Positions 16,581-17,926 of a stretch of DNA of 39,111 nt are shown here, in pieces. The position numbers and the translations under genes were made by a program. Position 1 is the first letter of the stretch, and the number at the start of each line of letters is the position of its first letter. The stretch is from positions 1 through 39,111 of the forward strand of contig NZ_AWGA01000059.1 of assembly GCF_000471645.3 (NCBI RefSeq), written 5' to 3'. The stretch is from Candidatus Schmidhempelia bombi str. Bimp (GTDB lineage Bacteria; Pseudomonadota; Gammaproteobacteria; Enterobacterales; Orbaceae). A model generated the notes under the pieces. That model was not told the origin of the DNA. It saw only the letters and a program-made list of their open reading frames with translations, and made no database searches.

Positions 16581-17195
16581 TTAATCGATATTAGCAAATT
16601 TATGCGTTTGGAAACTTAATAACCACTTATTATCCGTTCTGCCTTGATTAATTCGCCCCAATATTTGAATAGTAGCAAGTATATTGAATTGACCATCGAG
16701 TTCACATGGCGATAAGTAATAACGTTTGGCATGAAAATGTTTTTCTATAAATAAGCAAAAATCATAAAAATCACTTTTTTCTTCTACGACAATTCTTATT
16801 TCATCGATCTGCGGTTGTTGTATCGTTTGATAACGATTCCAGTAACAAAATTTCGGACTTAATGCGATATAATCAAAATGCGGATCAATTTTACCTAAAC
16901 CATTACTTTCGATAGCAATAAAATAACCGTTCTTTTTTAATTGGCTAAGCAATAACGGTAGATATTTTTGTAATGTTGGTTCACCGCCAGTGATGATAAT
17001 ATTTTTACTCTCAAATAGAGCAATTTTTTCCAGAATCATTTCAAGCGTCATTTTAGTGTATTGTCTAAAATTAGTGTCACACCATTGGCAGTTCAAATTA
17101 CATCCCGCAAAGCGAATGAATATGGCTGGCATACCAGTATTGTAACCTTCACCTTGTAGTGATTCAAAGATCTCTACGATATTAAATTTTGTCAT
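16581..17195 (-). CDS. queE: 7-carboxy-7-deazaguanine synthase QueE
   Basis: A radical-SAM enzyme that turns 6-carboxy-tetrahydropterin (QueD product) into 7-carboxy-7-deazaguanine on the way to preQ1 and queuosine. It is 204 residues with the iron-sulfur motif CNLNCQWC (Cys32, Cys36, Cys39), an early SLQGEG and TGGEPTLQ for SAM binding. Its ATG overlaps the queD stop by four bases, so the two are translationally coupled and both lie behind the preQ1 riboswitch. Confidence 0.94.
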   Translation of the reverse strand: MTKFNIVEIFESLQGEGYNTGMPAIFIRFAGCNLNCQWCDTNFRQYTKMTLEMILEKIALFESKNIIITGGEPTLQKYLPLLLSQLKKNGYFIAIESNGLGKIDPHFDYIALSPKFCYWNRYQTIQQPQIDEIRIVVEEKSDFYDFCLFIEKHFHAKRYYLSPCELDGQFNILATIQILGRINQGRTDNKWLLSFQTHKFANID

Positions 17196-17620
17196 TGATT
17201 TTCTTTTCTATATTCACAATAAGATGTTGGTGTTTCCCATAATCTCACCATGGTAATTGGTAGGTAATGTGATAATTGTTCAAAGATAAATTTACTCATT
17301 CCTTCAGCTGTAGTACGACAAGGAAATGCAAATACTTTACGCTGCATACGTTGTAGTAGAGCGGCAATCTCACATTCATTTTTATTTTCTTGAAAAAATA
17401 AAAAGGCATGATCCAGTGGATCCACAATATGTTGTTTTACAATGTGCTTTAAATCGGCAAAATCCATCACCATATCGCAACTTGAACCCTGCTTAATTAA
17501 ATTTCCGCTTACTTCGATAACTAATTTATAAGTGTGTCCATGTAAATTATGGCATTTCCCTTGATGGCCATCTAACATATGGCAAGCATCAAATTGAAAT
17601 TCTTTGGCTATGATGTACAT
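17192..17620 (-). CDS. queD: 6-carboxy-5,6,7,8-tetrahydropterin synthase QueD
   Basis: Makes 6-carboxy-tetrahydropterin from dihydroneopterin triphosphate, the first dedicated queuosine step. It is 142 residues of the PTPS fold: zinc ligands His14, His27 and His29, and catalytic Cys23 in CHNLHGH. It is followed by queE with a four-base overlap. Its own Shine-Dalgarno sequence is weak (AAGAAC upstream of an A-run), while a 25-codon ORF with a strong one ends 11 bases before its ATG. Translation may therefore depend on coupling to that leader ORF and on the riboswitch. Confidence 0.95.
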   Translation of the reverse strand: MYIIAKEFQFDACHMLDGHQGKCHNLHGHTYKLVIEVSGNLIKQGSSCDMVMDFADLKHIVKQHIVDPLDHAFLFFQENKNECEIAALLQRMQRKVFAFPCRTTAEGMSKFIFEQLSHYLPITMVRLWETPTSYCEYRKENQ

Positions 17621-17631
17621 TTTTTCTGTTC

Positions 17632-17709
17632 TTAATAAAGTTGGGTGATTAGAAAGAGTGATTTGGTATGATTAATGTAGAAAATGGTGTGGTGTAAAAA
17701 AGATAACAT
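17632..17709 (-). CDS. Candidate 25-codon leader peptide between riboswitch and queD
   Basis: An ATG at 17709 opens 25 codons ending TAA, 11 bases before queD. AGGAG (17717-17721) lies seven bases upstream of its ATG and is the 3' end of the preQ1 aptamer. The peptide begins MLSFLHHTIFYINH and ends in Tyr. Six of 25 residues are His (6, 7, 14), Tyr (11, 25) or Asn (13), which are read by tRNAs that carry queuosine. I do not recognise a homologue. Translation is inferred from the ribosome binding site and position only; it could also be a chance frame. Confidence 0.55.
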   Translation of the reverse strand: MLSFLHHTIFYINHTKSLFLITQLY

Positions 17710-17718
17710 ATTAAATCT

Positions 17719-17754
17719 CCTAGTTTTTTTGCGTGGGATGGATTGCGAACCACG
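17719..17754 (-). promoter_or_regulatory. preQ1-I riboswitch upstream of queDE
   Basis: On the minus strand: stem CGTGG/CCACG, loop TTCGCAATCCAT, then the A-rich tail CAAAAAAACTAGG. This is the compact H-type pseudoknot layout of preQ1-I aptamers. The tail GG can pair with the loop CC on ligand binding, and it is part of AGGAG, so the switch should control translation by hiding a Shine-Dalgarno sequence. It precedes queD and queE, whose product pathway makes the ligand. Confidence 0.88.
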
Positions 17755-17772
17755 ATAAAAATTTTAACAAAG

Positions 17773-17860: not shown

Positions 17861-17913
17861 AAAACAATGAACGTTATCTGCTAATATTTTTATATTGGCG
17901 ATAACGTTCACTG
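17861..17913 (-). terminator. Terminator after sppA
   Basis: Long stem TGAACGTTATC (17869-17879) / GATAACGTTCA (17900-17910), with extra pairing AATAT/ATATT inside. On the minus strand it is followed by TTGTTTTTATT. It ends sppA and insulates queDE. Confidence 0.85.
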
Positions 17914-17926
17914 TTTTGTCTATTAT

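Follow-up and report, generated by a model that had tools for sequence, protein, structure and literature searches.

We found that the preQ1-I riboswitch upstream of queD in Candidatus Schmidhempelia bombi str. Bimp presents its Shine-Dalgarno (SD) sequence to a short leader ORF and not to queD. We think it probable that the riboswitch controls queD by way of this leader, which would act as a translated stretch. preQ1-I riboswitches are standard examples of a riboswitch that hides the ribosome site of the gene that it controls. The window is the whole stretch of DNA that was analyzed (39,111 nucleotides), and the features of the locus are listed in Table 1.

Table 1. Features of the queD locus, with positions in the window and the basis for each.
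Feature	Position	Strand	Basis
preQ1-I riboswitch aptamer, type I	17714..17759	-	RF00522, 49.6 bits, E 2.7e-7
AGGAG SD of leader ORF, at 3' edge of aptamer	17717..17721	-	sequence; anti-SD pairing -7.3 kcal/mol
Leader ORF, 25 codons, MLSFLHHTIFYINHTKSLFLITQLY	17632..17709	-	ORF list; same position in 11 related queD loci
G-free stretch inside leader ORF, 75 nt, 28% C, rut-like	17632..17706	-	composition
Gap from leader stop to queD, 11 nt, carries weak queD ribosome site	17621..17631	-	sequence; -1.4 kcal/mol
queD, 6-carboxytetrahydropterin synthase	17192..17620	-	TIGR03367 equivalog, 93.5 bits; PF01242, 110.6 bits
queE, 7-carboxy-7-deazaguanine synthase (radical SAM)	16581..17195	-	QueE models, below cut-offs; PF04055

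The aptamer matched the RF00522 covariance model above its gathering score of 39. UC precedes the 3' strand of P1 (CAUC/CCACG in the sequence), which is the rule for type I preQ1-I aptamers (PMC11625349). Queuosine genes lie downstream of the aptamer, consistent with its assignment to the preQ1-I class. The QueD match exceeded the TIGR03367 cut-off (89.25 bits). For queE, the top NCBIfam matches were QueE models, all under their cut-offs, and PF04055 was also matched. The start of queE overlaps the stop of queD as ATGA.

The leader ATG (17709) is seven bases after AGGAG (17721-17717), the leader stop ends at 17632, and queD begins at 17620, 97 nt downstream of the AGGAG. The SD of the aptamer is thus that of the short ORF, and queD is without a strong SD of its own. 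Pairing with the anti-SD was -7.3 kcal/mol for the leader and -1.4 kcal/mol for queD, compared to a median of -4.0 kcal/mol for the longer ORFs of the window. The initial annotation of this DNA had read an aptamer at 17719-17754, which the covariance model confirmed. On re-reading the sequence, its AGGAG, 7-base spacing, 25-codon frame, and 11-base gap were exact, and it had correctly given residues 6, 7, 11, 13, 14, and 25 of the peptide as H, H, Y, N, H, and Y. It had also called the queD ribosome site weak, in agreement with the pairing energies, and had assigned the riboswitch SD to the leader ORF and not to queD. The latter was borne out by the same layout upstream of queD in Frischella, Snodgrassella, and ESL0693.

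A second preQ1-I switch in the genome is upstream of queF and has no leader. Reading by eye, we noticed a long inverted repeat after sppA, at 17862-17914 (GTGAACGTTATC / GATAACGTTCA), with T's behind it. This is likely the sppA terminator, and the que operon is therefore probably a separate transcript.

We found that the leader layout recurs in relatives, in four lineages altogether. Our census covered 123 preQ1-I switches from Neisseriaceae and from Orbaceae, the latter with a single additional representative of the order. In these sets, which were picked by family and whose counts are valid for these families only, 111/123 switches start a gene directly (queF 47, queC 33, queD 26, yhhQ-like 5). 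These 111 genes each span at least 90 codons, and genes were named by motif. The remaining 12 switches are all upstream of queD, and all 12 open an ORF of 20-36 codons at the aptamer SD, which argues for a relay through the leader. These loci are from this genome, two Frischella, eight Snodgrassella, and the Neisseriaceae isolate ESL0693. Direct starts of queD in Orbaceae (24 copies) all come from the genus containing Gilliamella.

Spacing and SD strength were compared among these loci. The leader stops 3-24 nt upstream of queD in 11 of the 12. The exception is Frischella G007, with a gap of 52 nt, which is long for reinitiation and argues against the relay. Pairing of the leader SD was -6.5 to -7.3 kcal/mol at the leader-bearing loci, except in ESL0693 (-4.2), and SD pairing was -4.0 to -4.2 kcal/mol at loci with a direct queD start. 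In Snodgrassella, the spacing from SD to ATG is long (12 nt after GGA), which also counts against the relay.

One further leader was found in a wider sample. It has 23 codons (MLTLFLFTFRGDNLLCFFKGDKR), precedes queF, and meets it in an ATGA junction (G410, L251). The genome belongs to another gammaproteobacterial family, and its relatives with a readable switch start genes directly. Elsewhere (L186 in G104), a queF copy after a preQ1-I switch has an early frameshift, and that genome contains another near-equal match to the switch. We found neither QueD nor any PTPS homologue in the Orbaceae genomes G001, G002, G003, G005, G008, and G010. Most of these genomes do contain a preQ1-I/queF unit. 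With queF kept and QueD/PTPS not found, the start of the pathway seems to have been lost in these Orbaceae. G001 is the sole relative from the genus of the window, and the window leader was therefore compared with leaders from other genera, which we note among the points against the relay.

The leader might also be fortuitous. The spacer would then be left over from an insertion, and queD would use its own weak site, either constitutively or with an effect of the riboswitch on mRNA stability. We consider this unlikely. We simulated each spacer with an order-1 Markov model and looked for a leader of 20 or more codons, with a usable ATG distance and a stop before queD. Such a leader arose by chance in 0.5% of the simulated window spacers and in up to 4% across lineages. 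Once the ATG was granted, the figures rose to 16% for the window, which is a point in favor of a fortuitous ORF, and to 10-25% per lineage; because the lineages share ancestry, combining these per-lineage figures into one P-value by multiplication would be invalid. A fortuitous leader would also fit with Gilliamella needing none, with an unconserved peptide, and with a queC aptamer (G1027, L319) whose spacer of ~90 nt has no leader ATG. That spacer contains CCCCTCCTCC, an anti-SD-like run. In contrast, an ORF stands behind the aptamer SD in 12/12 queD spacers even though most of the leaders are unalignable with each other, indicating that the open frame was kept through near-total sequence change. 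Most Snodgrassella keep the stop at one position, whether it is TAA, TAG, or TGA, and queD has a ribosome site that is either weak or hidden (see below). The 12 leader layouts upstream of queD are not due to chance; the layout is real and recurrent.

The leader peptide is hardly conserved between lineages, which we count as a point against the relay. The window peptide aligned with two Snodgrassella leaders (P about 0.005) and not with most others. We rejected peptide conservation; the similarity is in the segment that forms the arm pairing with the queD ribosome site in Snodgrassella (the anti-RBS arm). Four close Snodgrassella leaders had an excess of synonymous changes (12/21, P 0.004, in frame only). 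This was also rejected: P was 0.44 for all seven Snodgrassella leaders of equal length, and the hairpin confounds the test.

We found that access to the queD ribosome site is limited in different ways at different loci. Pairing of the queD SD itself was -1.4 to -3.2 kcal/mol in 7 of the 12 leader loci and -5.9 kcal/mol in the other five, all Snodgrassella. In five of the eight Snodgrassella genomes, leader codons 8-11 (AUAUUUCCUC or near) pair with GAGGAAAUAU around the strong queD SD. Masking the leader in the five strong-SD loci raised the accessibility of the queD site from 0.15-0.37 to about 0.98. In two Snodgrassella genomes (G070 and G142), a different pairing register covers the queD SD, which is weaker there, and in ESL0693 the queD site is covered by leader codons 13-16. 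With the leader masked as by a ribosome, the queD site opened to 0.83-0.98 over the Snodgrassella hairpin loci and ESL0693. Compared to codon-shuffled leaders, the pairing in these loci had P values of 0.007 to 0.13, with sequestration supported for ESL0693 and two Snodgrassella (G144 and G070) at P 0.01-0.03. For the Snodgrassella helix, we rejected strict covariation, as the register is shifted in G070 and G142 without same-column compensation.

There was no leader pairing beyond chance in Snodgrassella G139, Frischella, or the window, where the queD SD pairs at -1.4 to -2.5 kcal/mol. In G139 (L196), a hairpin spans the queD start instead. The queD site was not sequestered beyond codon-shuffled leaders in the window and Frischella (P 0.69, 0.75, and 0.76), and this is evidence against the relay. 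In translational attenuation of the ermC type, stalling on a leader peptide opens a downstream ribosome site. The Snodgrassella and ESL0693 leaders resemble this type in that leader codons pair with the downstream site, which leader occupancy would open. They differ in that the signal would act on initiation of the leader, through the aptamer, and not by stalling. For the window, an ermC-type hairpin was rejected (ribosome site 0.59 unpaired, P 0.69 versus codon shuffles). Whether by a hidden strong SD or by a weak SD, queD is expected to need a ribosome from the leader. The initial annotation had proposed that queD is coupled to the leader, and the position of the stop (mostly 3-24 nt before queD) and the weak or hidden queD SD make this plausible.

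The window leader has an unusual base composition. G is missing from all 75 nt between the ATG and the end of the stop, and C occurs 21 times (C minus G = 21). When both strands were scanned in windows of 75 nt (about 78,000), only 4 were as skewed for C over G, and two of these were the leader itself. The leader had no structure beyond that of shuffles (z 0.31), and we detected no intrinsic terminator or internal promoter beyond chance in the spacer. Rho loading (rut) sites look like C-rich, G-poor, unstructured RNA. The window leader, which is C-rich, G-poor, and unstructured, resembles such a site, and its translation may therefore also protect the message.

In a rival reading, Rho would provide the main output. 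Bare leader RNA would load Rho and stop transcription before queD, translation would shield the RNA, and initiation coupling would be minor. This reading overlaps with the relay, and the leader is the stretch of the window with the most C over G, unstructured and with no intrinsic terminator inside. However, the skew is milder in Frischella, ordinary for the locus in Snodgrassella, and not special in ESL0693, and in the last two the sequestering hairpin occurs instead. We infer that Rho is an addition to coupling, or a rival of it, and not the core, and we regard Rho as the main output as rather unlikely. The strong G-free composition is found in the window only, which in turn argues against the relay.

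We found no enrichment of codons read by queuosine-containing tRNAs. The initial annotation had called the leader rich in His, Tyr, and Asn, and had proposed that these codons sense finished queuosine. The leader has 6/24 such codons, compared to 5.1 in shuffles (P 0.41) and 5.3/24 predicted from base composition alone (P 0.44). Enrichment was rejected by both comparisons, and the proposed sensing of the product was not supported. Without G, the encodable residues are limited to F, L, I, S, T, P, Y, H, N, Q, and K. Asp codons are absent from the window leader. Leaders of relatives have 2-6 His/Tyr/Asn codons (F. japonica 3/24; three Snodgrassella 2/20), with an excess in none.

A dual sensor would nevertheless be conceivable, in which the aptamer reads preQ1 and decoding of His/Tyr/Asn codons reads tRNA queuosine, for example if slow decoding by unmodified tRNA holds the queD site open. 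The genome contains tgt, and queuosine is therefore likely made. Codon 5 of the Snodgrassella leader immediately precedes the anti-RBS arm. It is CAT, TAT, or AAT in 8/8 genomes, and is the only position that keeps a codon of this type while the amino acid changes. In the window, CAC (codon 6) is at the matching place in the peptide alignment. However, codon 5 represents about three substitutions, and a single-base change of CAT is not unlikely to stay in the set. No leader has an excess of these codons, G-free composition accounts for the count in the window, and a role for queuosine-containing tRNA was argued against in a Listeria preQ1/uORF case by a tgt deletion test (PMC12519234). Dual sensing is thus very unlikely. 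We likewise give little credence to a narrower version with two inputs, in which preQ1 would gate ribosome entry and speed at the codon beside the anti-RBS arm (Snodgrassella codon 5, window His 6) would report tRNA queuosine, with precursor and product sensed on one mRNA.

The history of the operon is consistent with an old leader. In a tree of QueD and QueE, Frischella is outermost, followed by ESL0693 (a long branch) and then Snodgrassella, and the window is sister to Gilliamella (96/85). On this topology, the leader would be ancestral to the clade, older than the Frischella split, and lost once in Gilliamella. All leader-bearing loci form one group in a QueD-only tree, but this grouping is absent from the QueD+QueE tree, which is based on more sites. 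A single loss in Gilliamella would be the simpler history. That Gilliamella lives without a leader is a point against the relay. The clade contains Orbaceae and part of the Neisseriaceae, and other Neisseriaceae QueDs are outside it; the operon has thus probably moved between families by transfer. A phage origin was rejected, as no similar phage record was found.

Taken together, the best reading of these sequences is probably a relay from riboswitch to leader ORF upstream of queD. As established for the class, preQ1 bound to the type I aptamer would hide AGGAG and block the leader start. When preQ1 is low, the leader would be translated, and ribosomes terminating 11 nt before queD would pass on to queD. 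Translation of queE would follow through the ATGA overlap. If the leader is not translated, there would be little initiation at queD, and the bare G-free, C-rich RNA may let Rho halt transcription. The role of the leader would be in being translated, with neither the peptide nor its His/Tyr/Asn codons as the means. The relatives suggest that leader translation is what would permit queuosine synthesis.

In the queDE clade of Orbaceae and Neisseriaceae, to which Frischella, Snodgrassella, and Gilliamella belong, switch and gene are separated by a short ORF (lost in Gilliamella). Annotators should be aware that the first ORF after an aptamer SD could serve as a relay, with the regulated gene further downstream. 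If queD depends on the leader, the loci that kept it and those that lost it (Gilliamella) offer a natural comparison of the cost and gain of a relay.

In a review of the preQ1 family, the modes of action given are SD occlusion and transcription termination, and the text does not mention queD, an upstream ORF, or an open reading frame (PMC11625349). Searches of the open-licence literature on preQ1 or queuosine, followed at the level of titles and abstracts, yielded no report of this layout. As far as searched, the layout is new for the preQ1-I class. The initial annotation knew of no described system of this kind; this calls for some qualification, since a B12-uORF relay (PMC11260477) and a Listeria preQ1 uORF (PMC12519234) are published. 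The type I preQ1-I riboswitches of Haemophilus influenzae and Neisseria gonorrhoeae (PMC11625349) share class, translational mode, and phylum with the one described here. The leader sets it apart from most members of our census, which start a que gene directly at the aptamer SD.

In Listeria, a preQ1-binding 5' UTR upstream of lmo2684 contains a uORF of 21-23 aa, and preQ1 promotes readthrough of its stop codon; the riboswitch-like sequence is said not to act as a typical riboswitch (PMC12519234). The likeness is the combination of preQ1 and a short uORF in one 5' UTR; the differences are the readthrough and a downstream gene that is not queD. Similar readthrough could join the leader to queD, since the two are in frame in Snodgrassella (gap 9 or 12), ESL0693 (3), and F. 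japonica (24). However, they are out of frame in the window and in Frischella G007, and we regard readthrough as extremely improbable.

The closest parallel to the relay that we favor is in Mycobacterium tuberculosis, where a B12 riboswitch acts on ppe2 by way of the uORF uPPE2, with termination-reinitiation as the main mechanism (PMC11260477). In both cases, the target of an OFF riboswitch is a short ORF, and the next gene has no proper SD and depends, or in our case is predicted to depend, on that ORF. The mycobacterial system has a B12 aptamer and an AUGA overlap, is in another phylum, and was tested experimentally; ours has a preQ1-I aptamer and an 11-nt gap. If queD depends on its leader as we suggest, riboswitch-uORF relays would be no mycobacterial oddity.
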